DNA from: Polaromonas sp.
Lineage (GTDB): Bacteria > Pseudomonadota > Gammaproteobacteria > Burkholderiales > Burkholderiaceae_C
DNA length: 64,000 nt
Reading direction: 5' to 3'
NCBI RefSeq assembly: GCF_016185115.1
Contig: NZ_JACPOF010000004.1
Span: 613,979 to 677,978 of the forward strand
Positions 9,094 through 25,613 of this stretch are shown here, piece by piece (position 1 is the stretch's first letter; every line of letters starts with the position of its first letter). Under the pieces are notes generated by a model, which had not been told where the DNA came from, searched no databases, and saw only the letters and a program-made list of their open reading frames with translations. The position numbers and the translations under genes are program-made.

Positions 9094-9098
9094 AGGGG

Positions 9099-11008: not shown

Positions 11009-11031
11009 GTGTGGAAGCCCTGATGTGTTCT

Positions 11032-11052
11032 AAAAAAACCGGGTTGCCCCGG
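11032..11052 (-). terminator. Intrinsic terminator or attenuator between pstS and pstC
   Basis: On the minus strand CCGGG, loop GCAA and CCCGG are followed by seven T residues. It starts 8 bases after the pstS stop. Partial termination here would explain the excess of PstS over the permeases that is usual for this system. Confidence 0.8.
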
Positions 11053-11060
11053 ATTTGTAT

Positions 11061-12104
11061 TTACTTGAACGCAACGGCCTTGCCGGAGGTGTCCTTGATG
11101 TCGGCCCATGATTTTTCAACCGTGGTCTTCACCGCTGCAGGCATGGGCACGTAGTCCAGGTCGTCAGCGGTCTTGTCACCGTTCTTGTAGGCCCATTCAA
11201 AGAACTTCAGCGAAGCGGTGGCCTGGGCTGGCTTGTCCTGGGCTTTTTGCATCAGGATGAAGGTGGCGCCAGTGATGGGCCACGAATCCTTGCCAGGCTG
11301 CTCGGTCAGGATCTGGTAGAAGCTCTTTGCCCAATCGGCGCCAGCGGCGGCTGCCTTGAATGCGGTGTCATCAGGCGCTACAAAATTGCCGGCCGCATTC
11401 TTCAGGACGGCGTAGGTCATCTTGTTTTGCTTGACGTAGGCGTACTCAACGTAGCCGATGGAGTTTGGCAGGCGACCCACAAATGCGGCCACGCCTTCAT
11501 TGCCCTTGCCACCAGCGCCCACTGGCCAGTTCACGGCCGTGCCTTCGCCGACCTTGCTCTTCCATTCAGCGTTGACCTTGCTCAGGTAGTTCGTGAAGAT
11601 GAAGCTGGTGCCGGAGCCATCAGCACGGCGAACCTGTGCGATGTCAGCATCGGGCAACGCCAGCGTCGGGTTCAGCGCCTTGATGGCCGGGTCAGTCCAT
11701 TTGGTGATCTTGCCGAGGTAGATGTCGCCCAGCACCTGGCCGCTCAGCTTGAGCTGGCCAGCTGCAATGCCCTTGATATTGACCACAGGCACGACACCGC
11801 CAATGACCATGGGGAACTGGACCAGGTTCTTGGCCTTGAGTTCTTCGTCTTTCAGGGGCGCATCGGATGCGCCGAAGTCCACGGTTTTGGCTTCGATCTG
11901 CTTGATGCCTGCGCCGGAGCCTACGGACTGGTAGTTGATCTTGACGCCGGTGGCCTTGTTGTAGTCAGCGGCCCATTTCGCATACAGCGGTGCAGGGAAG
12001 CTGGCGCCGGCGCCAGTGACGTCCTGTGCAGCCGCAAGGCTGGCAAACGAGAAGGCGGCAAGGCCGAGAACAGCAGTCATGGAAAGTTTGAAACCTGATT
12101 TCAT
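11061..12104 (-). CDS. pstS: Phosphate-binding periplasmic protein PstS
   Basis: Captures phosphate in the periplasm and delivers it to PstCAB. The ATG at 12104 gives 347 residues with a clear signal peptide ([15 protein letters not shown]..., cleavage after ASLAAA). Mature segments [39 protein letters not shown] and [16 protein letters not shown] contain the phosphate-binding loops of the family. The longer frame reaching back to 12275 covers the Pho box and is not coding. First gene of the pst-pho operon. Confidence 0.97.
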
Positions 12105-12207
12105 CAAAACACCTCGTTGGGTTATGGAAGAACTAAAAAAGAAAGGATGGGGACTGGAACAGGAAAGTACAAATCGATGAGAGATGCCGTGACTGTAGAA
12201 AGCTTGT

Positions 12208-12225
12208 GTGACAGGCATATGACAC
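12208..12225 (-). promoter_or_regulatory. Pho box (PhoB site) of pstS
   Basis: The minus-strand sequence GTGTCATATGCCTGTCAC matches 15 of 18 positions of the PhoB consensus CTGTCATAWAWCTGTCAY. A further TGTCA half-site lies 9 bases upstream (12233-12229). A possible -10 element TACAGT is found about 11 bases downstream, the usual distance for PhoB-activated promoters. The pstS start is about 105 bases away. Confidence 0.85.
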
Positions 12226-12269
12226 CCCTGACATGCCATTGAGGGGCAAAACCGCACCTTCTGCGTGCA

Positions 12270-12319
12270 TGTCACAAAAGCTTCAAAAAAGAGTCAAAGT
12301 CCGGTCACGGCCCTGTCAT
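12270..12319 (+). promoter_or_regulatory. Five-unit Pho-box-like array facing the divergent gene
   Basis: TGTCA (12270), CTTCA (12281), AGTCA (12292), GGTCA (12303) and TGTCA (12314) follow each other at an exact 11-base period on the plus strand, the spacing of PhoB half-sites. The last pair, 12302-12319, ends in CTGTCAT. The array is oriented toward the binding-protein gene at 12470, with about 150 bases of leader. Weakness: individual half-sites are degenerate and the nearby -10 (TACTCT) is poor. Confidence 0.6.
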
Positions 12320-12469
12320 GGGAGCGCCCTACTCTTGGGCGTGTCCCGGGCCCCCAGTTGGCACAGACCGCCAGCCAAATGTCCCTGTTGGCGCTTTTTC
12401 CGGCTGTCTTGCCCCCGCAAGCCCGATCCCGTCAATTATTTCAGGGCGCCTGCGCCCGAGGAACCCACC

Positions 12470-13618
12470 ATGCCTTTCCAGAACACCCCCATCAAACGCA
12501 GGCACTTGCTACAGGGCGCGGGCCTGGCAGCCGCGACGAGCGCCCTGCCCGCCTGGTCGCAACCCGGCAAACCCGCTGCCGCATCCCGCAATGTGGTGGT
12601 CGCGCAGATCGTCGACTTTTCACAGGCCCAGCAGGATGTATCCAAAGACTTCCTGATTGGCTCCCGTGCCGCCTGGCAGGACATCAACCAGCGCGGTGGC
12701 ATCAGGGGCAGGCAGGTCCAGCACCTGGCCATCGAAACTGACGGCACCTCGGCCAGCCTGCGCACCGCCCTCGAATCCATCAAGTCCAACCCCGCCTGCG
12801 TGGTCATGTCGGGCAGCGTGGGCGACCAGATGGCCGCCGAAGCCGTCACACAGATACGCAAGGACGGCCTGAACATGGCCCATGCTGCCCCCTGGCTGCA
12901 GAACTCCAGCCTGGAGGTCGATGACAACACATTCCCCATCTTTGCCGCCCGGCAGGAGCAGATTGCACATGCGCTGAAGACACTCTCGGTCATGGGCCTC
13001 AAGGAGCTGGGCGCGATTTACGGTACTGCGCGCGACCACGCCGCCTACCACGCCGAAGTCGAGCGTATTGCAGCGGGAATGCAGCTCAGGTTGCAGTCCT
13101 ATCAGGGCGCAGGGCAATTGCGCGGTCTGGGACAGAAACTGACACCGCAAACGCCCGCCGTGCTGCTGTTTGTGGGCGGTACGCCGGAATTGGCGGAGTT
13201 CACACAGGGCCTGGACAAACAATCACGGCAGCGATATGTCGTGGCGCTGGCCGATGTCAACCTGCAGATCATGCAGCAGATGGGCGCAGCGAAAAATACA
13301 CCTGTCATCGCCACACAGCCTGTCCCCATGGTCACCGCCAGCATGCCGGTGGTGCGGAGCTACCGCGAAATCCTGGCGCGCCTGTTTGATGAGCCCCCAA
13401 CCTCGCTGAGCCTGGCTGGTTTCATCGCCGCCCGCTATACGTTTGAAGTGCTCAACGACGTGGATGGTCCACTCACACGCCAGAGCGCACTGACGGCCTT
13501 CCAGCGCCGTACGGCGATGGATGTCGGTGGTTTCCGCGTGAGCTTCAACCCCCAGCGGCGCAGCAGCACATACGTGACCCAAAGCATGATGACGATTGAC
13601 GGACGCGTCATTGGATAG
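12470..13618 (+). CDS. Periplasmic amino-acid-type substrate-binding protein (LivK-like), putative Tat substrate
   Basis: A 382-residue protein of the type 1 periplasmic binding fold (Leu/Ile/Val receptor family): VVVAQIVDFSQAQQDVSK, RAAWQDINQRGGIRGRQV and SGSVGDQMAAEAV are typical first-lobe elements. The N-terminus KRRHLLQGAGLAAATSALPAWSQ has a twin-arginine-like pattern at about residues 9-31 and a signal cleavage site. No permease or ATPase gene is adjacent, so it may serve a remote transporter or act as a receptor. The ATG at 12470 is preferred over an upstream frame that crosses the regulatory region. The Pho-box-like array upstream suggests induction by phosphate starvation; the ligand is unknown. 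Confidence 0.75.
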   Translation: MPFQNTPIKRRHLLQGAGLAAATSALPAWSQPGKPAAASRNVVVAQIVDFSQAQQDVSKDFLIGSRAAWQDINQRGGIRGRQVQHLAIETDGTSASLRTALESIKSNPACVVMSGSVGDQMAAEAVTQIRKDGLNMAHAAPWLQNSSLEVDDNTFPIFAARQEQIAHALKTLSVMGLKELGAIYGTARDHAAYHAEVERIAAGMQLRLQSYQGAGQLRGLGQKLTPQTPAVLLFVGGTPELAEFTQGLDKQSRQRYVVALADVNLQIMQQMGAAKNTPVIATQPVPMVTASMPVVRSYREILARLFDEPPTSLSLAGFIAARYTFEVLNDVDGPLTRQSALTAFQRRTAMDVGGFRVSFNPQRRSSTYVTQSMMTIDGRVIG

Positions 13619-13698
13619 AAAGCAGGGAACGAGCGGCGCACGACCCCATGCGGATACCGCGCGAATGCTATGCTGAAAGGTCACACAGAAACCCAGAC

Positions 13699-15198
13699 AT
13701 GCAAAATGGAACGCTACTGGCGGCTGTGGACCTTGGGTCCAACAGCTTTCGCCTCGAAATTGGCCGATTTGACCGTGGCCAGATCAACCGCACCGAATAC
13801 CTCAAGGAAACTGTCAGGCAGGGCAACGGCCTGGACGCCGACCGCAACCTGACCCAGGATGCCATGCAGCGCGGCTGGGACTGCCTGGCGCGCTTTGGTG
13901 AACGCCTTGCAGGTTTCAAAAAAAGCCAGGTACGTGCCGTTGCCACCCAGACCTTGCGCGAAGCCCGCAACCGCGAGGAGTTTCTCGCCAAAGCCAACCG
14001 GATTCTCGGCTTCCCGATTGATGTGATCTCCGGCCGCGAAGAAGCCCGGCTGATTTACCAGGGCGTGGCCCACATGCTGCCGCAGTCCGATGAACGCCGT
14101 CTGGTGGTGGACATCGGCGGACGCTCCACCGAGATGATTGTCGGCAAAGGCCTTGACGCGCTGAACATGGAGTCTTACCGGGTCGGCAGCGTCGCCTGGT
14201 CGATGAAATACTTCCCGGATGGCCAGTTCACCTCACGCGCCTTCAATATGGCCGAAGTGGCCGCCAAAGCCGTGCTGGAAGAAGCCATCAACGCCTACGA
14301 GGCAAAAAGCTGGGACGTTGCTTACGGCTCCTCAGGCACGATTGGGGCCGTGAGCGACGTGCTGACGGCGTCTGGCTGGGCTGCGGGCATCGTGACACGC
14401 GAGGGCCTGGACTGGCTGCTTGACCGCCTTGTGAAAGCCCAAAGCGCAGACCGCCTGAAGATCGAGGGCATGAAGGACGACAGACGCGCGGTTATCGGCG
14501 GCGGCGTCAGCGTGCTGAGGGCGGTTTTCAACCTGCTGGGCATTGAAAAAATGGAAGCAGCACAAGGTGCGCTCCGGCATGGCGTGCTGTATGACCTTCT
14601 GGACCGCGAAAAAGACATCGCCGACCTGCGCTCCAGCAGCGTACAGCGCCTGGCTGTGCGTTTTGACACCGATGCAGTCCAGTCCGCACGCGTGAGCAGG
14701 GTCGCCAGACAGCTCTTCAAAATGTCCGTCACCGAATTGCAGCCAGCAGAGACAGACCGCCTCCAGCGCAAGCTGGAATGGGCGGCCCAGCTGCATGAAA
14801 TCGGCAGCCAGATATCACACAGCGACTACCACAAGCATGGGGCTTACATTCTCGACAACGCCGATGCGCCGGGCTTTGCCTTGCCCGAGTTGCACCGGCT
14901 GAGCCTGCTGGTGCTGGGCCACCGCGGGAAGCTGCGAAAGCTGGAAGCCGACTTCGAGGACCGCCTGCTCATCCAGCAGCTGATGTGCCTGCGCATGGCT
15001 GTCATCTTTTGCCACGCCAGGCGCGACCCCGACCTGAAGGGCCTGCAGCTTGAATGCGCGGTCAGCCCCGGCAAGCTGTTCGTGCTGAACTGCCGTCCAG
15101 GCTGGTCGGAAGCCTTTCCGCAATCAGCCTACCTGCTGCAAGAAGAGGTCGTCGCCTGGCAAAAAACCCCCTGGTCGCTGGTGGTTTCGGGGCTTTGA
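13699..15198 (+). CDS. ppx: Exopolyphosphatase
   Basis: Hydrolyses terminal phosphate from polyphosphate (and possibly pppGpp), the opposite of Ppk. From ATG 13699 the protein has 499 residues: the actin-like nucleotide-fold motifs AAVDLGSNSFRLEIG and VVDIGGRSTEMIVG, the catalytic-region TQTLREARN and SGREEARLIYQG, and a C-terminal HD-like helical domain (WAAQLHEIGSQISHSDYHKHGAYIL). An ATG at 13648 in the same frame would add 17 residues that do not resemble the family. It stands alone on the plus strand, opposite to ppk. Confidence 0.93.
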   Translation: MQNGTLLAAVDLGSNSFRLEIGRFDRGQINRTEYLKETVRQGNGLDADRNLTQDAMQRGWDCLARFGERLAGFKKSQVRAVATQTLREARNREEFLAKANRILGFPIDVISGREEARLIYQGVAHMLPQSDERRLVVDIGGRSTEMIVGKGLDALNMESYRVGSVAWSMKYFPDGQFTSRAFNMAEVAAKAVLEEAINAYEAKSWDVAYGSSGTIGAVSDVLTASGWAAGIVTREGLDWLLDRLVKAQSADRLKIEGMKDDRRAVIGGGVSVLRAVFNLLGIEKMEAAQGALRHGVLYDLLDREKDIADLRSSSVQRLAVRFDTDAVQSARVSRVARQLFKMSVTELQPAETDRLQRKLEWAAQLHEIGSQISHSDYHKHGAYILDNADAPGFALPELHRLSLLVLGHRGKLRKLEADFEDRLLIQQLMCLRMAVIFCHARRDPDLKGLQLECAVSPGKLFVLNCRPGWSEAFPQSAYLLQEEVVAWQKTPWSLVVSGL

Positions 15199-15228
15199 CT
15201 TGCGCCACAACCAGCCGGCTTTCAACAA

Positions 15229-15255
15229 CGGTATAAACGGTATAAACTGTTTACC
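15229..15255 (+). promoter_or_regulatory. Tandem/inverted repeat upstream of the 15281 gene
   Basis: CGGTATAAA occurs twice in tandem (15229-15237, 15238-15246). The second copy also forms an imperfect palindrome with the following bases (GGTATAAAC-T-GTTTACC, 15239-15255). It lies about 25-50 bases before the ATG and looks like an operator or promoter core; no regulator is assigned. Confidence 0.4.
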
Positions 15256-15280
15256 CCGTTATCAAAAGAAGGAAGTAAAA

Positions 15281-15666
15281 ATGGCTACCGTAAAAAAGCT
15301 GCAAACCCCGTTGTGAAAAAGCCTGCGGCCGCGCCTGCAAAACCCAGGGCAGCTGTCAAAAAGCAGCCCGCCAGGGCGCCGCTCAACAAAACCGTCCAGG
15401 CCAGGCCAGTAAAAGCCGTCAAGCCAGTGAAGGTTGAGAAACCCAAGAAGCCAAAGTTGGTACGCGACAGCTTCACCATTCCCAAGGCTGAGTACGTGGT
15501 GCTGGATGCGCTCAAGCTGCGTGCGACCAAGCTCACACGTCCTGCGAAGAAGAGTGAGTTGCTGCGGGCTGGTATCAAGGCATTGGCGGCCTTTTCTGAT
15601 GCTGCGTTTTTGACAGCGCTTGAGCAGGTACCGGCTATCAAGACAGGCCGGCCAAGGCTGGACTAA
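15281..15666 (+). CDS. Lys/Ala/Pro-rich small protein, needs -1 frameshift at A AAA AAG
   Basis: A good ribosome binding site (GAAGGAAG) precedes ATG 15281, but that frame stops after eleven codons at 15314-15316. The codons GTA AAA AAG (15290-15298) make a perfect -1 slippery heptamer A AAA AAG. A -1 shift there continues as A-A-N-P-V-V-K-K and joins the long frame that ends at 15666, giving about 128 residues: MATVKK, then a histone-H1-like Lys/Ala/Pro tail to about residue 60, then a conserved domain LVRDSFTIPKAEYVVLDALK ... RPAKKSELLRAGIKAL known from Burkholderiales hypothetical proteins. Alternatives are a GTG start at 15313 (117 residues) or a lost A in a run that was originally seven. 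Probably nucleic-acid-binding; function unknown. Confidence 0.7.
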
Positions 15667-15740
15667 CCCCCTCCCAGTCTCACTGCGTGTAGCCTGTACC
15701 CCCTTTCAGGGGACGGCGCTTTTGGGCTGGCGGAGCCAGA
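15667..15740 (+). repeat. Degenerate hairpin repeat, copy D
   Basis: CTCACTGCGTGTAGCCT, a CCCCC/GGGG arm pair, CGGCGC and the hairpin CTGGC-gga-GCCAG follow in the block order of copy C at 43025. It fills the space between the frameshifted gene and sixA. Similarity is weaker than among copies A-C. Confidence 0.5.
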
Positions 15741-15771
15741 CCCTCGCGCCCACTGGCCTGGTACCGCAGCC

Positions 15772-16245
15772 CTACAGCACTTCAGGCGACTGCACAGTCA
15801 CAACAACAGTCTGACAAGTCCCGTCCCTATCCCGGTTCCGCAGCCACCAGATGGCGCCCTTCTTCACAGGACACTCGCTCTCCTGCAAACCGAGAAGTTG
15901 CGCAATCGTCTGGCCCAGCATCGGCTGGTGGCCGACCACCACGACAGGGCCTTTGGCTGACGGCCATTGCACCAGCTCCAGCAACTGGGCGGGCGTGGCA
16001 TCCGGCCCCAGTTCCTGGCGGATCTTGTATTTGCGGCCCAGGGCCAGCACGGTCTGTTCGCAGCGCCTGGCCGGGCTGACCAGAATGCGGGCGCCGTCGG
16101 GCAACTGCCGGTCCAGCCAGCCAGCCATGCGGACCGCCTGCTTTTCGCCGCGTGGAGTGAGAGAACGCTCCAGATCCTGCGCTGCGGTCAAACCGCTGTC
16201 GGGCCTTTCTTCAGCCTCTGCGTGACGCCACAGGATCAGGTCCAT
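15772..16245 (-). CDS. sixA: Phosphohistidine phosphatase SixA
   Basis: Histidine phosphatase of the phosphoglycerate mutase-like superfamily that removes phosphate from phosphohistidine. The 157-residue protein has the catalytic LILWRHAEAEE at the N-terminus, the conserved Arg in SPARRCEQT and the second His in VVVVGHQPMLG. It begins 2 bases after the ppk stop, so the two are co-transcribed from the Pho-box promoter upstream of ppk. Because Ppk works through an autophosphorylated histidine, the pairing may be functional; this is inference. Confidence 0.9.
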   Translation of the reverse strand: MDLILWRHAEAEERPDSGLTAAQDLERSLTPRGEKQAVRMAGWLDRQLPDGARILVSPARRCEQTVLALGRKYKIRQELGPDATPAQLLELVQWPSAKGPVVVVGHQPMLGQTIAQLLGLQESECPVKKGAIWWLRNRDRDGTCQTVVVTVQSPEVL

Positions 16246-16247
16246 CG

Positions 16248-18377
16248 CTACTTCTGCCTTTGCCCCGGTGCGAAGTAGCGTGCCATCAGGGCTGCTTGCG
16301 CACCGTGTCCTGTGTTGTCAGATTTTCCGACGCGGACATAAGTTCCGTCGGGCTGCAGGTCCCAGGCATCCCGCCCGTCATGCAGGTAGGCCACCAGGCA
16401 TTCGTCGATGATGCGCTGGCGGATGGCGGGGTCGGTCACAGGCCAGGCCAGTTCTACCCGGCGCAGCATGTTGCGGTTCATCCAGTCGGCGCTGGAGAGG
16501 TACAGCTCTTCCACGCCATCACAGCGGAAATAGAACACCCGCGAATGCTCCAGGAAGCGCCCGATGATGGAGCGCACGCGGATGTTGTCGGTGACGCCCG
16601 GCACGCGAGCCGGCAACATGCAGGCGCCGCGCACGATCAGGTCTATCTTCACGCCGCGCTGGCCAGCCCTCACCAGTGCCAGCATCAGGTCTTCGTCGGT
16701 CAGCGCATTCATCTTGATGACGATGCGGGCATCCTTGCCCTGCCCTGCGGCTTCTGCGGCGCCGTCAATCTTTTCGACCAGTTTTTTCTGCAACTGGAAA
16801 GGCGCCAGCAGCACATGGTGCAGCTTCGGCAGCCTGCTCTGGCTGGCCAGATGCACAAATACGTTGTCGATGTCGGCCGTCAGCTCGGGCGATGCGGTGA
16901 GGTAGCTCACATCGGTGTACAAACGCGCCGTCTTCGGGTTGTAGTTGCCGGTTGAGAGGTGTCCGTAGCGCACCAGGTTACGACCTTCGCGGCGTGTTAC
17001 CAGCAGCATCTTGGCGTGGGTCTTGAGCCCCACCACACCATATACCACCTGGGCGCCAATCGACTCCAGCATTTCGGCCCAGTTGATGTTGGCCTCTTCA
17101 TCGAAGCGGGCCTTGAGCTCCACCACCACGGTGACTTCCTTGCCACGGCGCACGGCTTCACGCAGCAGCACCATCAGTTCGGAATCGGTCCCCGTGCGGT
17201 AAATGGTCTGCTTGATGGCCAGCACCTGCGGGTCATTGACGGCTTCGCGCAGAAAGGTCAGCACACCGTCAAAACTCTCAAACGGCTGATGAATGGACAC
17301 ATCGCCCTGCTTGAGCCGTTCGAAGAACGATTGCCCCTGCACCAGTTGGGTCGGGTAACACGCGCTGTACTGCGGAAACAAAAGATCTGGATCGTTCACC
17401 AGGTCAACCAGCTGCGTCAGGCGCACCAGATTGACGGGGCCGTGCACACGGTACAGCGCGGGTTCGGGCAGGTTGAACTGGGTCAGCAAAAAATTGGCAA
17501 GGTAATCAGAGCAGCCCGCCGACACCTCAAGGCGCACGGCCTGGCCGTAATGCCGCTGCTCCAGCCCCTGGCGCAGGGCGGTGCGCAGGTTCTTGACGTC
17601 GTCTTCATCGACCGCCAGGTCTGAATGCCGGGTGACACGAAACTGCGAGAACTGCCCCACTGAACGGCCGGGGAACAGTTCATTCAGGTGCGCGCGGATG
17701 ATGCTTGAGAGCGATACAAAAAGCGTGCCCTTGTTGGTACCGCGCGCAGGCATATGGATAAAGCGCGGCAAGACACGCGGCACCTTGACGATGGCGATTT
17801 CGTTCTCGCGGCCAAAGGCATCACGACCGCCCAGGCGCACGATGAAGTTGAGTGACTTGTTGGCCACCTGCGGAAACGGATGAGAAGGGTCAAGCCCGAC
17901 CGGGATCAGCAGCGGGCGCACTTCCCTCTCAAAATATTCTTTCACCCATTTGCGCTGGGCTACATTACGCTCGCCATGCGAGACGATGCGTATGCCGTGC
18001 TTGCCGAAAGCAGGCAGCAGCTCATCGTTGTAGACCGCGTATTGCCGCGCCACCATGTCATGCGCGGCATCTGACAATGCCTTGAAGCTCTGGGCGGTGT
18101 ACTCGCCCTTGGGATCTTCGCCCTGGGCTGCCGTCAGATGAGGCGCAGCCCGCACTTCAAAAAACTCGTCAAGGTTGGACGACACGATACACAGGTAACG
18201 AAGGCGCTCCAGCAGCGGTACATCCGCGCGCCTTGCCCAGTCCAGCACCCGCTCATTGAAGGCCAGGATGCTGTGGTCGCGGTCCAGAAACTGCAACACA
18301 GGCGCAGGGGTATGCGCCGAGGCATTCAGGACCGGCAACGGGTGGGAATGGGGCATTGACAGACTGTAACTTTGCAT
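16248..18377 (-). CDS. ppk: Polyphosphate kinase 1
   Basis: Reversibly polymerises the gamma-phosphate of ATP into polyphosphate. The 709 residues match the family (about 690): N-terminal FLDRDHSILAFNERVLDWA, the segment VVVELKARFDEEANINWAEML, GLKTHAKMLLVTRREG and YGHLSTGNYNPKTARLYTD, where the HLSTGNYN histidine is the phosphorylated residue. ATG 18377 is taken as the start; 18356 (MPHSHPLP) is possible. It follows agt closely and has its own Pho box within the 3' end of agt. Confidence 0.97.
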   Translation of the reverse strand: MQSYSLSMPHSHPLPVLNASAHTPAPVLQFLDRDHSILAFNERVLDWARRADVPLLERLRYLCIVSSNLDEFFEVRAAPHLTAAQGEDPKGEYTAQSFKALSDAAHDMVARQYAVYNDELLPAFGKHGIRIVSHGERNVAQRKWVKEYFEREVRPLLIPVGLDPSHPFPQVANKSLNFIVRLGGRDAFGRENEIAIVKVPRVLPRFIHMPARGTNKGTLFVSLSSIIRAHLNELFPGRSVGQFSQFRVTRHSDLAVDEDDVKNLRTALRQGLEQRHYGQAVRLEVSAGCSDYLANFLLTQFNLPEPALYRVHGPVNLVRLTQLVDLVNDPDLLFPQYSACYPTQLVQGQSFFERLKQGDVSIHQPFESFDGVLTFLREAVNDPQVLAIKQTIYRTGTDSELMVLLREAVRRGKEVTVVVELKARFDEEANINWAEMLESIGAQVVYGVVGLKTHAKMLLVTRREGRNLVRYGHLSTGNYNPKTARLYTDVSYLTASPELTADIDNVFVHLASQSRLPKLHHVLLAPFQLQKKLVEKIDGAAEAAGQGKDARIVIKMNALTDEDLMLALVRAGQRGVKIDLIVRGACMLPARVPGVTDNIRVRSIIGRFLEHSRVFYFRCDGVEELYLSSADWMNRNMLRRVELAWPVTDPAIRQRIIDECLVAYLHDGRDAWDLQPDGTYVRVGKSDNTGHGAQAALMARYFAPGQRQK

Positions 18378-18408
18378 CTGAAGGTAAACGGGACAACCAC
18401 CCCAGTGT

Positions 18409-19515
18409 TTACCGGTTTGATGACAGTGGTGTGACAGTTGTGGATACTGATGTGACAGCCGGGGCTTTGCAAGCGGTGCTTGTGCTGCCGGGACGGGTGG
18501 GCACCAGGTGATCGTGGAAAAGCCTTGACGCCTGCGCCCAGCTGAAATCCAGCGACCTCAGTCGGGCCTGGTGGCGCGGTACGGCCAGCGCCCCATGACA
18601 GGCCTGCTGCAGGTCTTCATGCATGACACCCCCGTGACAGCTGCCGTCGGGCTTGCCCAGCACTTCCAGTGGGCCGTCCACCGGGTAGGCCGCGACAGGT
18701 GTGCCGCTGGCCATGGCCTCGAGCATCACCAGACCAAAGGTTTCCGACCGGCTCGGAAAGACAAACACGTCTGCGGCGGCATAGACCTTTGCCAGCTCAT
18801 CGCGCGGCAGTACGCCCATCCAGCGTACCTGCGGGTAACGTTCTTTCAGCGAAGCCTCCAGCGGCCCCACGCCGCAAACCACCTTGGTGCCAGGCATATC
18901 GAGCTTGAGGAAGGCGTCTATATTCTTCTCATAAGACACGCGGCCCACAAACAGCGCTACGGGCCGGCTCAGCGCGCCCATGGGTGGATACAGGCGCGCA
19001 TCGGGCTGGTAAGTAAAAAGGCTGGTGTCGACACCATGCGTCCAGCCGCGCAGATTGCGCAACCCGCGCTGCTCCAGCATGCGCAGCACGCCGTCAGTCG
19101 GCACCATCACCCCGGACGAATGTTTGTGAAAGTGCCTGAAGAGTGCATAGCCCCAGGCCAGTGGCACCTTGAGCGCAGCCTTGAGGATTTCAGGGAATTT
19201 CGTGTGGAAAGCCGTGGTGAAAGCCAGCCGTCGCTTGAGGCAATAGCTGCGTGCCGCCCAGCCCAGCGGGCCTTCGGTGGCGATGTGTATGGCTTCGGGC
19301 TGGAAAGCATCAAGCCTTTCAGTCAGTACCTTTTTTGGCGATACCGCGAGGTCTATGCCTGCATAACCGGGGCACGGCCTCGTCTTGAAGAGGCCGGGGT
19401 GAATCACCTCGACCTGGTGGCCCAGCAGTTCAAGCTCACGCACCAGCTCGACCAGCGTGGTGACGACGCCATTGACCTGTGGTTGCCACGCGTCGGTAAT
19501 CAGTGCGATCTTCAT
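18409..19515 (-). CDS. agt: GT4 glycosyltransferase, diacylglycerol glycosyltransferase (Agt-type)
   Basis: Predicted to transfer a sugar from a nucleotide donor to diacylglycerol, giving phosphorus-free glycolipids during phosphate starvation. The 368-residue GT-B protein has the N-terminal ITDAWQPQVNGVVTTL, the glycine-rich FVGRVSYEKNID (about 189-200) and the EX7E donor-site motif E258-TFGLVML-E266. It overlaps plcP by 4 bases (ATGA), as plcP and agt are neighbours in many bacteria that replace phospholipids. The last 25 codons are low-complexity Thr/Ser/Pro-rich and contain the Pho box of ppk. The sugar donated cannot be told. Alternative: another alpha-mannosyl/glucosyl transferase of the PimB/MgtA type. 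Confidence 0.8.
   Translation of the reverse strand: MKIALITDAWQPQVNGVVTTLVELVRELELLGHQVEVIHPGLFKTRPCPGYAGIDLAVSPKKVLTERLDAFQPEAIHIATEGPLGWAARSYCLKRRLAFTTAFHTKFPEILKAALKVPLAWGYALFRHFHKHSSGVMVPTDGVLRMLEQRGLRNLRGWTHGVDTSLFTYQPDARLYPPMGALSRPVALFVGRVSYEKNIDAFLKLDMPGTKVVCGVGPLEASLKERYPQVRWMGVLPRDELAKVYAAADVFVFPSRSETFGLVMLEAMASGTPVAAYPVDGPLEVLGKPDGSCHGGVMHEDLQQACHGALAVPRHQARLRSLDFSWAQASRLFHDHLVPTRPGSTSTACKAPAVTSVSTTVTPLSSNR
18420..18437 (-). promoter_or_regulatory. Pho box of ppk-sixA inside the 3' end of agt
   Basis: Minus-strand CTGTCACACCACTGTCAT matches 15 of 18 positions of the PhoB consensus, with half-sites 11 bases apart. A third TGTCA lies 21 bases further upstream (18457-18453). The site ends 43 bases before the ppk ATG, and a weak -10 (TAAACA) lies between. 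It provides a PhoB-dependent internal promoter for ppk-sixA. Confidence 0.8.
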
Positions 19516-20411
19516 GGGCTGGCCTTTGCGGTAACGGTGGAAGTTGACGTCGCCGCATGGTGGCCCCTGCCCTGTGTTTCATGTGCCGGCGCCCAGTGCA
19601 CCAGTTCCAGCGAACCGTCGTAGTTTTCTACCAGCGCGCTGCGGCTTTCTACCCAGTCGCCGTCATTGCAATACAGCACCCCGTTGATCTCGCGGATCTC
19701 CGCCCGGTGGATGTGCCCACAGACCACGCCCTGATGACCGCGCCGCCGCGCCTCGTTGGCGACCGCCTCTTCAAAGTCGGTGACATAGTTGAGCGCGCTT
19801 TTGACCTTTTGCTTCAGGTAGGCCGAAAGTGACCAGTACGGCAGGCCCATGCGTGCGCGCAGGCTGTTGAGGTGGCGGTTGAGCTTGAGCGTGAATTCAT
19901 ACAGGTTATCGCCCACATAGGCCAGCCATTTGGCGCACTGGACGACGGCGTCGAAGTAGTCGCCATGGATGATCCAGAGCTGGCGGCCATCAGCGGTGGT
20001 GTGGACGGCTTCTTCCACCACTTCGATACCGCCAAACTGGTGGCCTATAAATTCACGCGCGAACTCATCATGGTTGCCCGGCACATAGATGACGCGGCAG
20101 CCCTTGCGCGCGCGCTTGAGCAGCTTTTGCACCACATCGTTGTGCGACTGCGGCCAGTACCACTTGCGGCGCAGCTGCCAGCCGTCGACGATGTCGCCCA
20201 CCAGGTAAAGGTTGTCGCTGGGGTGGGCTTTCAGAAAGTCGAGCAGCGCTGCTGCCTGGCAACCGGGCGTGCCCAAATGCAGGTCGGATATGAAGATGCT
20301 GCGGTAGCGCTTGCGCAGCGAGTCGTCGTCGCTGTCCGGGCCACCATCCGGCCCGACCCCGCCGTTGCCCGACATGCCCATGGGCCCCATGGCGTCAAAC
20401 ATGTTGCGCAT
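19512..20411 (-). CDS. plcP: Calcineurin-like metallophosphoesterase, phospholipase C PlcP-type
   Basis: Predicted Mn-dependent phospholipase C that releases diacylglycerol from membrane phospholipids when phosphate is scarce. From ATG 20411 (TGATG overlap with olsB) the protein has 299 residues. Metal-site motifs in order: D43-L-H45, GD at 72-73, GNHDE 112-116, HGD 149-151 and GHIH 232-235. The segments YLVGDIVDGW and KWYWPQSHNDVVQKLLKRARKG are those I recognise from Sinorhizobium PlcP (SMc00171). Many databases label such proteins UDP-2,3-diacylglucosamine pyrophosphatase (LpxH-like), the main alternative; the location between olsB and agt favours PlcP. Confidence 0.85.
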   Translation of the reverse strand: MRNMFDAMGPMGMSGNGGVGPDGGPDSDDDSLRKRYRSIFISDLHLGTPGCQAAALLDFLKAHPSDNLYLVGDIVDGWQLRRKWYWPQSHNDVVQKLLKRARKGCRVIYVPGNHDEFAREFIGHQFGGIEVVEEAVHTTADGRQLWIIHGDYFDAVVQCAKWLAYVGDNLYEFTLKLNRHLNSLRARMGLPYWSLSAYLKQKVKSALNYVTDFEEAVANEARRRGHQGVVCGHIHRAEIREINGVLYCNDGDWVESRSALVENYDGSLELVHWAPAHETQGRGHHAATSTSTVTAKASP

Positions 20412-21268
20412 CAGGCGGTCGCGGCTTTGTTGAAATGCTTCTGATAACGCGGCGGCAAGTCGGCGATGCGCATCATCATGGGCAGGTCGGCCGAATTGAA
20501 GTCCGGGTCCCATGCGGGCGCGCCCAGCACCTTGGCGCCCAGGCGCAGGTAGCCCTTGATCAGCGCGGGAGGTTCGACCGTCATGGAATCATCAAGCTGC
20601 TCGACCGGCAGCGCCAGTCTCGGCGTAACACGGTACTCAATCGGCGCCAGATGGGTTTGCCTGACCTGCTTCCATATGCTGGCTGCCGCATGACCACTTG
20701 AAACACCGTTGTGCTGCATCGGGATGCTGGCGCAGCCGATCATGGTGTCGAGCTGGTTGCGGCCCATGAATTCGGCCAATGCGCCCCACAGCGCCAGTAT
20801 CACACCGCCGTGGCGGTGGTCGGCATGTACGCAGCTGCGGCCCAGCTCGACCATGCGCTCGCGCAGGCTGCGCAGGCGCGTGAGGTCGAACTCGGTGTCG
20901 CTGTAGGTGCTGCCGGCGCGTTTGGCCTGGGTCGGCGTCAGCACCCGGTAGGTGCCAATGACCGCCTGGCTTTCTTCGTCGCGCACCAGCAGGTGCTCGC
21001 AGTAGTCGTCGAACAGGTCGATGTCATGGCCGGGCACCGTGGCAGGCAGGTTGGCGCCCATCTCAAGTGCGAAAACCTCGTACCTCAGGCGCTGCGCCTG
21101 CCGGACTTCATCCTGGTGCCTGGCCCAGCTGACCTGGATTTTCCCCACGGCAGGCCTTTGAACAGCGGCTGGAACTGGAGCATGACCGCTTTGACAAAGT
21201 GACCCCCGTGAAAACTGGGGTGAGGCCACTGGTGAGAGTGCAAAGGTAGGGTTGGGCAGTTCTTTCAT
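20411..21268 (-). CDS. olsB: L-ornithine N-alpha-acyltransferase OlsB
   Basis: GNAT-fold enzyme that attaches a 3-hydroxyacyl chain from acyl carrier protein to ornithine, the first step of ornithine-lipid synthesis. ATG 21268 has an AGGAG ribosome binding site 7 bases upstream and gives 285 residues. Recognised segments are RLRYEVFALEMGA, DIDLFDDYCEHLLVRD, VIGTYRVLTP, ELGRSCVHADHR and IGCASIPM. No olsA is visible here; its acyltransferase could be elsewhere. First gene of the olsB-plcP-agt operon, each gene overlapping the next. Confidence 0.87.
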   Translation of the reverse strand: MKELPNPTFALSPVASPQFSRGSLCQSGHAPVPAAVQRPAVGKIQVSWARHQDEVRQAQRLRYEVFALEMGANLPATVPGHDIDLFDDYCEHLLVRDEESQAVIGTYRVLTPTQAKRAGSTYSDTEFDLTRLRSLRERMVELGRSCVHADHRHGGVILALWGALAEFMGRNQLDTMIGCASIPMQHNGVSSGHAAASIWKQVRQTHLAPIEYRVTPRLALPVEQLDDSMTVEPPALIKGYLRLGAKVLGAPAWDPDFNSADLPMMMRIADLPPRYQKHFNKAATA

Positions 21269-21320
21269 GGCGCGCTCCTGGTTGTCGTGTCTGTGGGTGT
21301 GTATAAAAAATTGCTTGCCG

Positions 21321-21345
21321 AAAAAAAGCCCCGGGAGTCGGGGCT
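21321..21345 (-). terminator. Intrinsic terminator between the Pho-controlled short transcript and olsB
   Basis: On the minus strand AGCCCCG, a 5-base loop and CGGGGCT form a perfect 7-bp stem directly followed by seven T residues. It lies 14 bases after the stop of the 78-codon ORF and about 50 bases before the olsB ATG. It ends a short transcript or acts as an attenuator of olsB. Confidence 0.85.
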
Positions 21346-21359
21346 GGGACGGAAGGATT

Positions 21360-21596
21360 TCATGCGGCGTCACCGATGGTCGGCAGGGCCTGCGTGCCCC
21401 GCCCTCTGGTGATGTTTTCAAGGCCCTCCAGCCACGGATGGGTGCCGGCCTTGAAGCGCAGGCCGCCGGGACTGCTGGCCATGGCTCTCGCCGTGCAGCG
21501 CAGGATGCGCAGGCACTGCTGGTAAACCGGATGGTGGCTAGCCCCGGCCGTCGTGGCCAGTGGCTGCTCTGCTTGCTGCGTGTCTGTGTTTGCCAT
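21360..21596 (-). CDS. Possible 78-residue protein or non-coding leader upstream of olsB
   Basis: An open frame of 78 codons (MANTDTQQAEQPLATTAGA...) with no recognised domain. Its ATG lies about 24 bases after a Pho-box array, so the predicted transcription start (after the -10-like CAGAAT) falls at or near the ATG. It has no clear ribosome binding site, and an internal ATG at 21482 is an alternative. The frame ends just before a strong terminator. The RNA may therefore be a leaderless small mRNA, an attenuator leader or a PhoB-induced small RNA. Coding status is uncertain. Confidence 0.35.
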   Translation of the reverse strand: MANTDTQQAEQPLATTAGASHHPVYQQCLRILRCTARAMASSPGGLRFKAGTHPWLEGLENITRGRGTQALPTIGDAA

Positions 21597-21619
21597 GCCG
21601 GAATTCTGGAATCCGGCCG

Positions 21620-21657
21620 TGACGCAGGCGTGTCAGTTCAATGGCAATTGCGTGACA
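21620..21657 (-). promoter_or_regulatory. Four-unit Pho-box array upstream of olsB
   Basis: Read on the minus strand, TGTCA (21657-21653), TGCCA (21646-21642), TGACA (21635-21631) and CGTCA (21624-21620) recur at an exact 11-base period. Each keeps at least 4 of 5 bases of the TGTCA half-site. A -10-like CAGAAT lies 11 bases after the last unit. Direction matches olsB-plcP-agt. Confidence 0.65.
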
Positions 21658-21732
21658 GTGCTTTCAGGCCTTGTTGTTGAGGCCATTCGGGCGTCCGGCC
21701 AGGACAGCCAAAAGGCTCGCAGGCCGGGTATT

Positions 21733-21780
21733 GCTATTAAATATATAGCTGCTCACGTGCGTATTTATTGGTCTGGAGCC
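21733..21780 (+). repeat. 48-bp intergenic repeat, copy 1
   Basis: Begins GCTATTAAAT, contains ATAGCTGCTCACG and ends TATTGGTCTGGAGCC. It matches the reverse complement of 46050-46097 at 41 of 48 positions. It lies in a gene-free stretch of 344 bp (21597-21940) that otherwise holds only the Pho array and an AT-rich tail. Confidence 0.7.
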
Positions 21781-21940
21781 CTAAAAGGCAGTCAAAAATG
21801 ACCCGAAAACGGCATTTCTGACGCCTGAAAACGCCTTCGGAGGCCGCCACAAGCTCGCGATGAAAATAATGCATCATATATAACCCATTAAACAGTTATG
21901 GTCTTATTTGTGATGCACTATTTTCTGCAAGCCTCGGAAC

Positions 21941-22615
21941 CTATGCATCAATGCCGGATGCCGCGGCATTGATGTCGCGCACTTCCAGAATCGGCCTCGA
22001 ATAACCAGCCCTGGCGACGTTCAACATGGCCAGCCCCATGCGCTCGGTCGTGGTGATGCTGTCAGGCCGCAGGCTGCGCATCACGGGAAACAGCGGTTTG
22101 AAGATTGCGATCAGCACGCGGTAAGCCACGGTTTTCGATACCTCGCCGTTCATGGGCTGGATGGCGCCCGGCCTGAACATGAAGGCCTTGAGCGGCAGGC
22201 GCAGCAGCTCGTTCTCGGTACGGCCCTTGACCCGCGCCCACATGATGCGGCCCTGCCCGGTGCTGTCTGTGCCGGCCCCTGAGACATAAACAAACGTCAT
22301 GCCGGGCTTGATGCGCGCCAGCGCGGTGCCCGCAGCGACCGGAATGGCGTGGTTGATGGCGGCATATTCGGCTTCGCTGCGGCCCGCAGCCGTCGCGCCC
22401 AGGCAGAAAAAGCAGGCGTCGTAACCCGCCAGCTGTTTCTCTACAGCGCTGTAATCCAGCAAATCCTTGTGCACCAACTCTTTCAGCTTCGCGTGCTGAA
22501 GACCGGTCAGCGTTCGCCCCACAGACAGAACCTCCGTCACGCCCGCATCCTGCAGGCATTCACGCATAACGCCCTGGCCCACCATGCCGGTGGCGCCGAA
22601 TAATATGACTTTCAT
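21941..22615 (-). CDS. NAD(P)-binding oxidoreductase (atypical SDR, NAD(P)H-binding)
   Basis: A 224-residue Rossmann protein starting MKVILFGATGMVGQGVMREC with the GATGMVG nucleotide-binding motif at residues 7-13, then ACFFCLGATAAGRSEAEY and FVYVSGAGTDS. The family resembles yeast and bacterial NmrA/HTATIP2-like epimerases of unknown substrate. ATG 22615 is preferred because the Rossmann motif starts there. It is monocistronic and divergent from the 22778 gene. Confidence 0.75.
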   Translation of the reverse strand: MKVILFGATGMVGQGVMRECLQDAGVTEVLSVGRTLTGLQHAKLKELVHKDLLDYSAVEKQLAGYDACFFCLGATAAGRSEAEYAAINHAIPVAAGTALARIKPGMTFVYVSGAGTDSTGQGRIMWARVKGRTENELLRLPLKAFMFRPGAIQPMNGEVSKTVAYRVLIAIFKPLFPVMRSLRPDSITTTERMGLAMLNVARAGYSRPILEVRDINAAASGIDA

Positions 22616-22777
22616 GGTTTGTCTCCTTGTCGTTAGAAGGCTGCTTGCCTGCTTATAGCCTGTTTGAGGGTGCGCCCTGCCGTAGGACATGACCCACCTG
22701 TTTTTGAGCGTCCCCGTGCCGTCGTGTACCGACGTACGCATTAGCTTTGGGGTTCCCCGCAACCAAAGGAGAACATC

Positions 22778-23086
22778 ATGCCAAGAGGCGACAAATCTTC
22801 ATACACCGACAAGCAAAAACGTCAGGCTGAACATATTGAAGAAGGCTACGAGGACCGCGGACTGGGCAAGGAAGAAGCGGAGCGCAGGGCCTGGGCCACC
22901 GTCAACAAAGAAACCGGCGGCGGAAAAAAGTCAGGCTCTGGCCGTGGCAAGGGAGAAAATCACGCACCGTCCCGCAAGGGTGGCCGTCTGGGCGGTGCAG
23001 CCGCTGCTTCACGTAATTCTGCAGAACGCTCGGCCTCAGCGCGCAAGGGCGCAGCCACACGCAAGCGAAACGCTGCCGCAAAATAA
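22778..23086 (+). CDS. Small basic KGG-like protein (often annotated plasmid stabilisation protein)
   Basis: 102 residues beginning MPRGDKSSYTDKQKRQAEHI, then a predicted helix EEGYEDRGLGKEEAERRAWATVN and a Gly/Lys/Ser/Ala-rich basic tail (KKSGSGRGKGEN ... ARKGAATRKRNAAAK). Proteins with this opening are widespread in Proteobacteria and usually called plasmid stabilisation proteins, without proof. The charge suggests nucleic-acid binding or a stress role. A ribosome binding site (AAAGGAG) precedes the ATG. Confidence 0.7.
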   Translation: MPRGDKSSYTDKQKRQAEHIEEGYEDRGLGKEEAERRAWATVNKETGGGKKSGSGRGKGENHAPSRKGGRLGGAAAASRNSAERSASARKGAATRKRNAAAK

Positions 23087-23105
23087 CCATCCTGCAAGGA
23101 GCGCG

Positions 23106-23585
23106 ATGCCTGCATCATATGAACCCGTGATCGTTACCCTCAAGCAGCGCATGCCCGCCACTGATGAGGCCGTTTTTGATGCATGGGTGACGCCAGAGAT
23201 GGCCAAACAGTTTTTCTTCACCACCCCAACCGGCGAAATCCTGGTCTATGAGATGAACGCCGTCACTGCGGGCGGTTTCACCATCACCGAGCGACGGCCC
23301 AAACCCGATGGACAGCCAGGCACCATGGATGTGAAGCATGTCGGCCACTACATCGAGATTGCGCGCCCGTCCCGGCTGGTGTTCAGCTTCAGCGTGCCGC
23401 AGTTCCCGGGCGATGAAACCGTGGCGGCGCTGGATTTGGTCTCGCTGTCGTCAGGCGAATGCGACCTGACGCTGACGCACAGCCTGGGCAGCAGCGACAC
23501 TGCGCGGCAAGTCAGGGACAAGACAGCGGCGGGATGGAGGGCGGTGCTGGGGCGGCTTGAAAAAGCCTTGGCCAGCCAGGCCTGA
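23106..23585 (+). CDS. SRPBCC/AHSA1 family protein
   Basis: 159 residues of the activator-of-Hsp90 ATPase 1-like START fold: TLKQRMPATDEAVFDAWVTPEMAKQFFF at the N-terminus, GHYIEIARPSRLVFSFSV in the middle and a C-terminal helix TAAGWRAVLGRLEKAL. Such proteins bind small hydrophobic ligands; the function here is unknown. It starts 19 bases after the basic protein, with AAGGAG before the ATG, so the two genes probably share a transcript. Confidence 0.75.
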   Translation: MPASYEPVIVTLKQRMPATDEAVFDAWVTPEMAKQFFFTTPTGEILVYEMNAVTAGGFTITERRPKPDGQPGTMDVKHVGHYIEIARPSRLVFSFSVPQFPGDETVAALDLVSLSSGECDLTLTHSLGSSDTARQVRDKTAAGWRAVLGRLEKALASQA

Positions 23586-23777
23586 GCGCGCGCCCTTGGG
23601 CTGCTGTACGGCGAGGGGCAGGCTGTCATTGACATGCATCAAGGCAGCGCAGCGCTGCAAAGCCTAATCTTGACGTTTACTGCGAGGCCCCATGTCCCAC
23701 CCTTTCCCCAAAATGGAATTTGCCGTCGTGCCCACACCAGGCGCGACCTCAACGCCCGCCATCATCCGCCATCCGTC

Positions 23778-25613
23778 ATGATTGATGACACCATTGTGCA
23801 AAGTGGCCAACTGCCTTCCCCGGACGAAAACCAAATCTGGCTGAGGTCCCAAGCGCCCGGCTTTCTCAATCTGCCAACCAGGCACATTTTTTTTACCGGG
23901 AAAGGGGGGGTCGGCAAGACGTCGCTGTCTACTGCTACTGCCCTGGCCATGGCGGACGCAGGCAAAAAGGTGCTGCTGGTCAGCACAGATGCGGCGTCCA
24001 ACCTCGATGAAATGCTGGGCATAGAGTTTGGGAGTCTGCCCGCAGCTGTACCCGGAGCACCCGGCCTGTCGGTATTGAATATCGATCCCGACACCGCCGC
24101 GAATGCCTATCGGGAGCGCGTTCTGGCACAGATGGGCGCGGCAGCGAGTGAAACCGATCTGGCTACCGTACGGGAGCAGCTGTCCGGAGCCTGCACCACG
24201 GAAATCGCATCCTTCGATGAGTTCGCGGCGCTCTTGTCTGAAGATGAACATCATTTTGATCACATCGTGTTCGACACGGCGCCCACCGGGCACACATTGC
24301 GACTGCTGAGCCTGCCCAAGGCATGGAGCGGGTTTCTCGATAACAACGACAAGGGTGCATCCTGCCTGGGTCCACACTCCGGCCTCAAGATGCAGGAGGC
24401 CCGCTTCAAGGCCGCGCTTGACGCCCTGAGTGACCCGGCTGTCACGACAGTCATTCTTGTCACCCGCCCGGACAAGGGCGCCATTGCCGAGGCGGCGCAC
24501 GCATCTGAAGAGCTGTACGCGCTCGGCCTGAAAAACCAGCGTCTTGTGATCAACGGAGATTTTCACGCCAGTGATCACACCGACGCTGTTGCTGTGGCCA
24601 TTGAGGCACTTGGGCAGCAGGCACTGAAAGAGATGCCGCCTTCACTTCTTGAACTGCCCCAAGACAGGGTACCGCTTCGGGCATTCGACACAGTAGGTTT
24701 GCCTGCCCTGCGTGCACTTCTTTCTACTGCGGCTCCACGCATTGAGCCCGGCGAGGCCGTCATGCCCGGACACCTCGAACATCTTAGGGGACTGGATGCT
24801 TTGGCAGACGAGCTGTCAGCTACCGGCCACGGGCTGATCATGGTCATGGGCAAAGGCGGGGTTGGCAAAACGACTGTCGCGGCAGCACTCGCGGTTGGAT
24901 TGGTCCAGCGTGGACACAGCGTGCACCTGAGCACCACCGACCCGGCGGCACATGTGGCAGCCACAGTGAACGGGGATATGCAGGGTTTGCGCGTGGACCG
25001 CATCGACCCCAAAGTCGAAACACAGCGCTACATCGACAAGATCATGGCGGCAAAATCGCCAGCACTTGATGCGCAGGCGCAAGCCCTGCTGCTGGAGGAC
25101 CTTCGCTCCCCCTGCACCGAAGAAGTGGCTGTCTTTCATGCCTTCTCACGTGTCGTCGGTGAGGCGCGCAGTGCATTTGTCGTTCTGGATACCGCGCCCA
25201 CCGGCCATTCACTTTTGCTGATGGACGCCACAGGTGCCTACCACCGGCAAATGATGCAGGAGTTTGCGAACCACGGCGCGGGACGGGTCATCACGCCCTT
25301 AATGAGGTTGCAGGATGCAAATTACACAAAAATCATTCTGGTCGCCCTTCCTGAGGTGACCCCGGTCACCCAGGCCGCAGCCTTGCAGGACGACTTGCGA
25401 CGCGCTGGTATTGAGCCCTACGCCTGGGTACTGAACAAAAGCGTGATGGCCGCAGGGACACACGACCCGCTGCTGGCGGCGCGCCTCGCAGGGGAAAGCA
25501 AACAGATAAATCGTATCTCCGGCGGACTTGCAAAACGTCTTTTCATACTGCCGTGGTTGACACGCCCGCCTATCGGCCTTGTCGAACTGTCCAGACTTGT
25601 CGTTCAAAGGTAA
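23778..25613 (+). CDS. arsA: Arsenite-activated ATPase ArsA
   Basis: Soluble ATPase that couples ATP hydrolysis to arsenite export through ArsB. ATG 23778 gives 611 residues (Escherichia coli plasmid ArsA has 583). Two tandem halves are seen, each with a P-loop GKGGVGKT (41-48 and 358-365) and a DTAPTGH signal-transduction motif (about 166-172 and in the second half). Cys139, Cys196 and Cys446 correspond in context to the three metalloid-binding cysteines. No arsD chaperone gene is present, and arsB lies 2.2 kb away in another transcript. It converges with arsH. Confidence 0.93.
   Translation: MIDDTIVQSGQLPSPDENQIWLRSQAPGFLNLPTRHIFFTGKGGVGKTSLSTATALAMADAGKKVLLVSTDAASNLDEMLGIEFGSLPAAVPGAPGLSVLNIDPDTAANAYRERVLAQMGAAASETDLATVREQLSGACTTEIASFDEFAALLSEDEHHFDHIVFDTAPTGHTLRLLSLPKAWSGFLDNNDKGASCLGPHSGLKMQEARFKAALDALSDPAVTTVILVTRPDKGAIAEAAHASEELYALGLKNQRLVINGDFHASDHTDAVAVAIEALGQQALKEMPPSLLELPQDRVPLRAFDTVGLPALRALLSTAAPRIEPGEAVMPGHLEHLRGLDALADELSATGHGLIMVMGKGGVGKTTVAAALAVGLVQRGHSVHLSTTDPAAHVAATVNGDMQGLRVDRIDPKVETQRYIDKIMAAKSPALDAQAQALLLEDLRSPCTEEVAVFHAFSRVVGEARSAFVVLDTAPTGHSLLLMDATGAYHRQMMQEFANHGAGRVITPLMRLQDANYTKIILVALPEVTPVTQAAALQDDLRRAGIEPYAWVLNKSVMAAGTHDPLLAARLAGESKQINRISGGLAKRLFILPWLTRPPIGLVELSRLVVQR

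Follow-up and report, generated by a model that had tools for sequence, protein, structure and literature searches.

Background

This report describes a predicted membrane-lipid operon, olsB-plcP-agt, in a 64,000-nucleotide stretch of DNA from Polaromonas sp. (assembly GCF_016185115.1, contig NZ_JACPOF010000004.1, positions 613,979 to 677,978; the window hereafter), together with a small gene found at its head. The statements on described systems below rest on parts of the papers cited. In Pseudomonas aeruginosa, PlcP and a family 4 glycosyltransferase (GT4) are encoded by a single operon, plcP-agt1 (PA3219-PA3218), which has a Pho box (PMC8528852). The same species has a separate olsBA operon (PMC9804370), while in the window olsB is joined to plcP-agt. 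In Methylosinus trichosporium OB3b, a plcP-agt operon is required for the GADG glycolipid and low phosphate raises ornithine lipid; olsA and olsB, however, have locus tags of their own and are not named in the plcP-agt operon in the parts of that paper (PMC9239053). PlcP, OlsA, OlsB, and PhoX are all Pho-dependent in one cell in Pseudomonas putida BIRD-1, but the locus numbers of olsA and olsB (0974 and 0975) are far apart from that of plcP (1390) (PMC5082522).

Among beta-proteobacteria, Burkholderia sensu lato has a PhoB-controlled olsB with predicted Pho boxes upstream, and Paraburkholderia xenovorans produces ornithine lipid in low phosphate; plcP is absent from the main text of that study, and no glycolipid route appears in the parts consulted (PMC7814305). 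In marine heterotrophs plcP adjoining agt is a known type of neighborhood, and here it is olsB that is absent from the main text (PMC4796936). No olsB-plcP-agt operon and no small gene of the kind reported below is described in the parts of the literature covered, from which most subscription journals are missing. As judged from the sequence, the enzyme pathways would be known ones, the operon arrangement a variant, and the small protein undescribed. Fresh and glacier waters are often phosphate-poor. Comamonadaceae are reported to be ubiquitous in fresh water (PMC5964084) and Polaromonas to be abundant on glacier surfaces (PMC4921121).

Results and discussion

Three overlapping genes predicted to act on membrane lipids

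In the window, three genes on the minus strand overlap one another: olsB (20411-21268), encoding a predicted ornithine N-acyltransferase, plcP (19512-20411), encoding a predicted PlcP-type phospholipase C, and agt (18409-19515), encoding a predicted GT4 diacylglycerol glycosyltransferase. We consider it quite probable that they form a PhoB-controlled operon for membrane-lipid remodelling. At the olsB/plcP junction (TGATG, 20413-20409) one base, A, is common to stop and start codons, and at the plcP/agt junction (19515-19512) stop and start overlap as ATGA. The former overlap is retained in 34 of the 38 relatives where it is measurable and the latter in 47 of 54, and because of this retention both are taken to be more than chance. 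The open reading frames (ORFs) and junctions read directly bear out the gene structure given in an earlier note on this DNA.

OlsB matches Acetyltransf_5 (E = 8.8e-36), PlcP the calcineurin-like phosphoesterases, and Agt GT4/Glycos_transf_1. The motifs named in the same note are all present in the translations: SDLHLG, GNHDE, HGD, GHIH, and KWYWPQSHND in PlcP, and ETFGLVMLE as the EX7E motif of Agt. The KWYWP motif is variable; its strict pattern matches 22 rows of a 112-row alignment of PlcP and LpxH proteins that includes copies of the window protein.

PlcP and LpxH

By sequence comparison, the metallophosphoesterase is PlcP-type and not LpxH. It is 58% identical over 238 amino acids to the PlcP-type protein of a P. 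aeruginosa locus (L090; L-numbers label loci, G-numbers sampled genomes, and C-numbers contigs of the window's genome). Its identity to the LpxH of its own genome, encoded separately on contig C21, is 27% over 73 amino acids. With an LpxH model whose cut-off is 134 bits, the C21 protein scores 234.7 and the window protein 52.3. With TIGR01854 (cut-off 190.35 bits) the scores are 187.3, just short of the cut-off, and 46.8. GNHDE is found in 106 of the 110 PlcP-type rows, while both LpxH rows have GNRDF.

The earlier note had proposed a phylogeny as the way to separate PlcP from LpxH, with a place among LpxH counting against its reading. In such a tree the window protein clusters apart: the two LpxH proteins, that of the window's genome and the E. 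coli one, are separated with 100/100 support. The tree has 28 hand-chosen rows of the 112; LpxH is represented by two of them, long branches are flagged, and much of the branching on the PlcP side is poorly resolved. An AlphaFold2 model of the window PlcP (predicted local distance difference test, pLDDT, 70.3; predicted template modelling score 0.66) has LpxH 5k8k as its closest solved fold, with 20% identity and a root-mean-square deviation (rmsd) of 13.9. The match is compatible with PlcP being a sister family of LpxH.

OlsB, Agt, and a candidate for OlsA

Over 336 residues, Agt shares 48% identity with the GT4 protein beside the P. aeruginosa PlcP (Agt1, L090); its identity to the P. aeruginosa GT4 protein adjoining plcR, from gene order probably Agt2/PA0842, is 32%. 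It agrees with a predicted Agt in its GT4 family, its EX7E motif, its position directly downstream of plcP, and its closeness to Agt1. From their position, the L090 genes would be the orthologues of PA3219/PA3218. Within 4 kb of the pair on L090, in contrast to the window, olsB, ppk, and the small-gene motif are all absent.

The best matches of OlsB are OlsB models (E = 7.6e-48), and the protein is 31% identical to a Sinorhizobium GNAT protein, presumably OlsB. A PlsC-type ORF on contig C13 (L005) has OlsA models as its best matches. OlsB, Agt, and the OlsA candidate all score under the NCBIfam equivalog cut-offs (see below) and are therefore called predicted. As for the claim that both phosphorus-free lipid routes lie in one operon, it stands for the predicted functions of PlcP, Agt, and OlsB, with the reservation that OlsB and Agt do not reach those cut-offs.

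Distribution and gene order

The locus survey comprises the best 80 of 589 relatives and is biased to close kin; most of its records carry names of Comamonadaceae genera (the larger part), of Burkholderiales, or of beta-proteobacteria. Five genes were searched, and contig ends depress the gene-order counts. olsB precedes plcP in 65 of the 80 loci. The order olsB-plcP-agt is found in 49, with ppk1 next in 40 of these, and the full string olsB-plcP-agt-ppk-sixA in 39.

A sample of 200 genomes from the window's family has 147 with PlcP, 162 with OlsB, and 73 with Agt. With gaps of up to 1 kb, olsB-plcP-agt occurs in at least 41 and olsB-plcP in at least 58 of them, both being lower bounds as olsB positions are at hand for 148 of the 162 OlsB genomes; plcP-agt occurs in 63. 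The earlier note knew of no detailed description of the three-gene form in Burkholderiales. Within this family it is in fact common, yet no description of it was found in the literature covered. In 120 genomes of the order, PlcP is present in 57, OlsB in 82, and Agt in 37; plcP and agt are at most 6 kb apart in 31, and plcP and olsB at most 10 kb apart in 12.

The same genes are also combined in other ways. Outside the family, G108 has plcP-agt-olsB and G007 has olsB-plcP-agt. In G031 (again another family of the order) and G076, plcP-agt is followed by olsB after about 0.7 kb. G069 has olsB, a 0.7-kb gap, plcP, and then pstS-pstC, the pstS- and pstC-like ORFs standing directly downstream of plcP (L117). 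G049 (L112, L113) has olsB-agt-ppk, with its plcP on the same contig but at a distance of about 1.66 Mb. Since these genes have been brought together in different orders, the variation argues for a common function.

Three individual loci may be mentioned. In the metagenome-assembled genome (MAG) CAIPGC, two contigs (L066, L080) each carry small gene-olsB-plcP-agt, either as a second copy or through a mixed bin. In a Polaromonas MAG, an in-frame stop splits plcP into two pieces (L013:4860-5717). A 263-kb plasmid of Mitsuaria sp. 7 (L089) has plcP-ppk1 with ppx opposite, and neither olsB nor agt was found within the 10.7 kb examined.

Pho boxes

A PhoB-type promoter precedes the operon on the minus strand. 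It has four tandem half-sites at 11-bp spacing (21658-21652, 21647-21641, 21636-21630, and 21625-21619) and a -10-like CAGAAT (21608-21603), as would be expected of a member of the Pho regulon; the whole (21603-21658) ends 335 bp before olsB. The top-scoring Pho box of the window, CTGTCACACCACTGTCAT, lies ahead of ppk on the same strand, within the 3' end of agt (18420-18437). A second Pho-box-like site is found within agt (18623-18640, minus strand), and a similar one occurs at L011:6859.

Boxes scoring at least 13 are found within 250 bp upstream of olsB in 23 of 63 loci and of ppk in 38 of 49, as against 1 of 79 for plcP, 0 of 55 for agt, and 2.95% of random windows. Within 600 bp upstream of olsB they are found in 27 of 62 loci versus 5.4% at random. 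This enrichment before olsB and ppk, which plcP and agt do not share, suggests that olsB and ppk each head a Pho unit of their own. In L014, L028, and L046, relatives that lack the small gene, the Pho box lies 84-135 bp before olsB. The promoter footprint, made up of four half-sites at 11-bp intervals and the box CAnAAT, is found in 12 of the 13 small-gene loci, L048 being without the anchor. The anchor pattern consists of the last half-site and the -10 box, so the other three half-sites lie outside it.

A small gene at the head of the operon

Between the PhoB-type promoter and olsB there is a small gene of 78 codons on the minus strand (21360-21596), encoding a protein of 78 amino acids with the core QCLRILRCTARAMASSPGGLRFKAGTHPWLEGL; its start codon is uncertain. 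The earlier note lists neither this gene nor its promoter. tblastn with the small protein gave matches immediately upstream of olsB in ten other surveyed loci, out of 65 that have olsB on the same strand. In the 200 family genomes, the gene was also found in G218 and G243, besides the window's own genome and one weak partial match, which brings the total to 13 loci with the gene upstream of olsB, window included. Among 399 genomes of the order, only the window's own genome gave a good match, with three weak partial ones. These genome searches scored at most 28 candidates per genome in the family and at most 14 in the order. In the genomes with weak partial matches (G214, G322, G473, G558), tblastn found no olsB, plcP, or agt in about 3 kb around them. 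The one in G473 (L124) is an open frame with SPGGLRLQSGVRPY, similar to the small-protein core (E = 5.1e-6), and no olsB was found within the 3.1 kb examined.

The small ORF is very likely a real gene under purifying selection, because the third codon position shows an excess of differences when seven close rows are aligned as DNA (0.317, 0.246, and 0.445 for the three positions) and because synonymous differences exceed nonsynonymous ones in the core (pS 0.59, pN 0.14). The latter comparison is biased, as the core was picked by motif, and it includes 15 rows of which two pairs are identical DNA. The N- and C-termini of the protein are variable. In the window six bases separate the -10 box from the ATG, which would fit a leaderless transcript or a start codon further in; L012 and L066 indicate later starts.

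The protein had no NCBIfam match at E of 1 or less, no Pfam match in 11 members except GAAD at E = 0.22 in one, and a best PDB match of E = 0.59. A plasmid search gave two Vibrio matches at E = 0.6, which are taken as chance. A structure model predicts one long helix (residues 23-41; mean pLDDT 60.7) and is too weak for a fold search.

A hairpin between the small gene and olsB

A hairpin followed by a T run, resembling an intrinsic terminator, lies between the small gene and olsB (21327-21345, minus strand). A GC stem with a T run is found in 8 of the 13 small-gene loci (window, L008, L010-L013, L110, and L111); L045, L048, L066, L080, and L085 have no hairpin within 420 nucleotides past the core. 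The hairpin starts 7-19 nucleotides past the stop codon of the small gene in six of the eight loci and overlaps that codon in L111; in L008 the open frame reads through it to the olsB start. In the five hairpin-free loci the frame ends within about 35 nucleotides of the extrapolated olsB start, the extrapolation resting on alignments that begin at residue 27-44.

Attenuation through pairing with the 5' arm of the hairpin, the only such pairing examined, was considered and rejected. No pairing is common to the eight leaders. The longest perfect upstream complement is 7 nucleotides in the window (15.5% of shuffles were as long) and 6 in L110 (46.5%), and the other six leaders have no perfect complement of 6 nucleotides or more. 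No RNA family reached the Rfam gathering score in 12000-24000.

Alternative explanations

Several observations weigh against a phosphate-controlled lipid operon. OlsB scores 163.5 and 146.9 bits where the curated equivalog cut-offs are 350 and 320 (with models that were, by name, built for Rhodobacter and Brucella), Agt reaches no NCBIfam cut-off among the 25 models listed, the OlsA candidate scores 138.7 against a 300-bit cut-off, and the structure model of PlcP is only moderate. plcP and olsB are separated in many genomes (41 of the 200 family genomes in one class alone). As for control by PhoB, 40 of 63 loci have no box scoring 13 within 250 bp of olsB, and the window's own olsB box scores 13.7 and lies 373 bp upstream. 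The window holds 5 boxes scoring at least 12 versus a Markov expectation of 4.5; with no excess in the window as a whole, it is the placement across loci that matters and the case rests on conservation. Finally, transcription from the promoter would have to pass the hairpin to reach olsB. What supports the phosphate-saving lipid switch proposed in the earlier note is the split between PlcP and LpxH, the likeness to plcP-agt of P. aeruginosa, and the Pho boxes, all of which are features of sequence, together with the Pho dependence of PlcP, OlsA, and OlsB in P. putida BIRD-1 (PMC5082522). If the metallophosphoesterase were LpxH, it would belong to the lipid A pathway and the cluster would serve the outer membrane instead of saving phosphate. 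Relatives are publicly annotated as 'UDP-2,3-diacylglucosamine diphosphatase', and LpxH is the closest match both in NCBIfam and, by sequence as well as fold, among PDB families. Yet the best fold match superposes poorly, the protein scores far below the cut-off that the genome's own LpxH exceeds and shares little identity with that LpxH, it has GNHDE in place of GNRDF, and the tree, for all its long branches and its two LpxH rows, separates the two. We therefore reject LpxH as the identity of this protein and regard such a role as highly improbable.

The hairpin suggests another possibility, that the genes are phosphate-regulated as a group but the hairpin ends the small-gene transcript, olsB having its own, perhaps constitutive, promoter. 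This would fit the hairpins of the eight small-gene loci, those also found after phoX in L009, L058, L025, and L026, and the lack of a common antiterminator pairing to the 5' arm. However, no sigma-70-like site is found between hairpin and olsB in the window, no common promoter-like sequence is visible by eye in the aligned rows of that interval, five small-gene loci lack the hairpin, and where the small gene is absent a Pho box lies close to olsB. A separate olsB promoter is thus somewhat doubtful. The hairpin, which begins 14 nucleotides past the stop codon in the window, could also mean that the small ORF is a mere leader peptide or a chance open frame, and its shortness and variable termini are in line with that. 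But the third-position excess, the difference between pS and pN (in the motif-picked core), and the retention of the core in the five hairpin-free loci make this decidedly unlikely.

phoX in the same position

A quick olsB+plcP tree kept 66 of 83 loci, with olsB and plcP of set length. In five of the 66, phoX stands directly upstream of olsB: L009 (2087-4039), L058 (2127-4073), L025 and L026 (2168-4081 in both), and L040 (2157-4070). PF05787 was confirmed in the phoX products of L009 and L058, and those of L025, L026, and L040 are 75-78% identical to that of L009. L009, L058, L025, and L026 have phoX, the lipid genes, and ppk in one stretch, and in L009 and L058 phoX is preceded by a four-half-site promoter laid out as in the small-gene loci. 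In the tree, L009 and L058 are sister to seven Polaromonas-like small-gene loci (support 99 for the nine-locus clade and 86 for the seven). Because the small gene recurs in a second group, with at least 6 changes over three slot states, the content of the slot appears to have changed several times. For PhoX itself, the window's genome offers no more than a remote match (58.4 bits) at another place.

The small protein shows a weak two-block likeness to PhoX. It has no PF05787 match, but BLASTP gives two collinear pieces with E = 0.002 and 0.022 (in a single comparison). Among 862 open frames, the C block alone was equalled by 0 (L009) and 1 (L058), and the N block alone by 3 and 2. The joint score was reached by 0, 0, 0, and 1 of 3000 shuffles for four PhoX proteins, and by 0, 0, 1, and 0 of 417 open frames, which are frames and not all genes. 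Note that the two blocks were defined after the likeness had been noticed and that the PhoX rows are mutually related. The hhalign comparison was not significant (probability 1.3%, E = 0.04, C-terminal block alone), and hmmsearch placed the L009 PhoX frame at E = 3.4. The likeness is absent from the more distant PhoX proteins of L017, L019, and L021. Distant phoX genes (about 34-35% identity to L009) lie upstream of plcP-agt in L017 and L021, and L019 has its distant phoX upstream of plcP; no olsB was found in these three loci. PhoX has about 640-650 amino acids, while the small-protein open frames have 67-109 codons, and the small protein is without the acidic residues of the matched PhoX block.

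An origin of the small gene from phoX is therefore a lead and not a result. On such a scenario, N- and C-terminal pieces of phoX would have been joined and the catalytic middle lost, in the slot heading the lipid operon. The internal collapse would have left a new microprotein of the Pho regulon, kept by selection because it regulates the synthesis of ornithine lipid or glycolipid or acts as a membrane partner there. This is speculative and, in our estimate, unlikely.

Neighboring phosphate genes

Next to agt on the minus strand are ppk1, a polyphosphate kinase gene by family matches (16248-18377), and a sixA-like histidine phosphatase gene (15772-16245). Further on are ppx on the plus strand (13648-15198), encoding an exopolyphosphatase of the Ppx/GppA family, and, on the minus strand, pstSCAB-phoU with a histidine kinase/response regulator pair, phoB-phoR by position, for phosphate uptake and sensing (5357-12275). 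The proximity of ppk, ppx, and pst-pho, which the earlier note had also pointed out, is thus found in the window. A Pho box precedes pstS (12208-12225). Back to back with it stands a Pho-box-like site on the plus strand (12302-12319, score 15.9) at the 5' end of a Peripla_BP_6 ORF (12233-13618, plus strand), which may have a later start codon and encode a second binding protein under Pho control.

Conclusions

When phosphate runs out, PhoB would bind the four half-sites at 21658-21619 and the small gene would be transcribed, with transcription continuing through or past the hairpin into olsB-plcP-agt; another Pho box would start ppk-sixA. PlcP would then strip phosphate head groups from phospholipids to give diacylglycerol, to which Agt would add a sugar. 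OlsB would make lyso-ornithine lipid, and OlsA, encoded elsewhere, would complete the ornithine lipid.

An operon that unites predicted ornithine-lipid and glycolipid synthesis beside polyphosphate genes, and that recurs in the family, may serve as a genetic marker for phosphate-saving membranes in fresh and glacier waters. It would also be a compact system for testing how resources are split between two lipid routes, and the small protein encoded first in it can be tested as a new candidate member of the Pho regulon.

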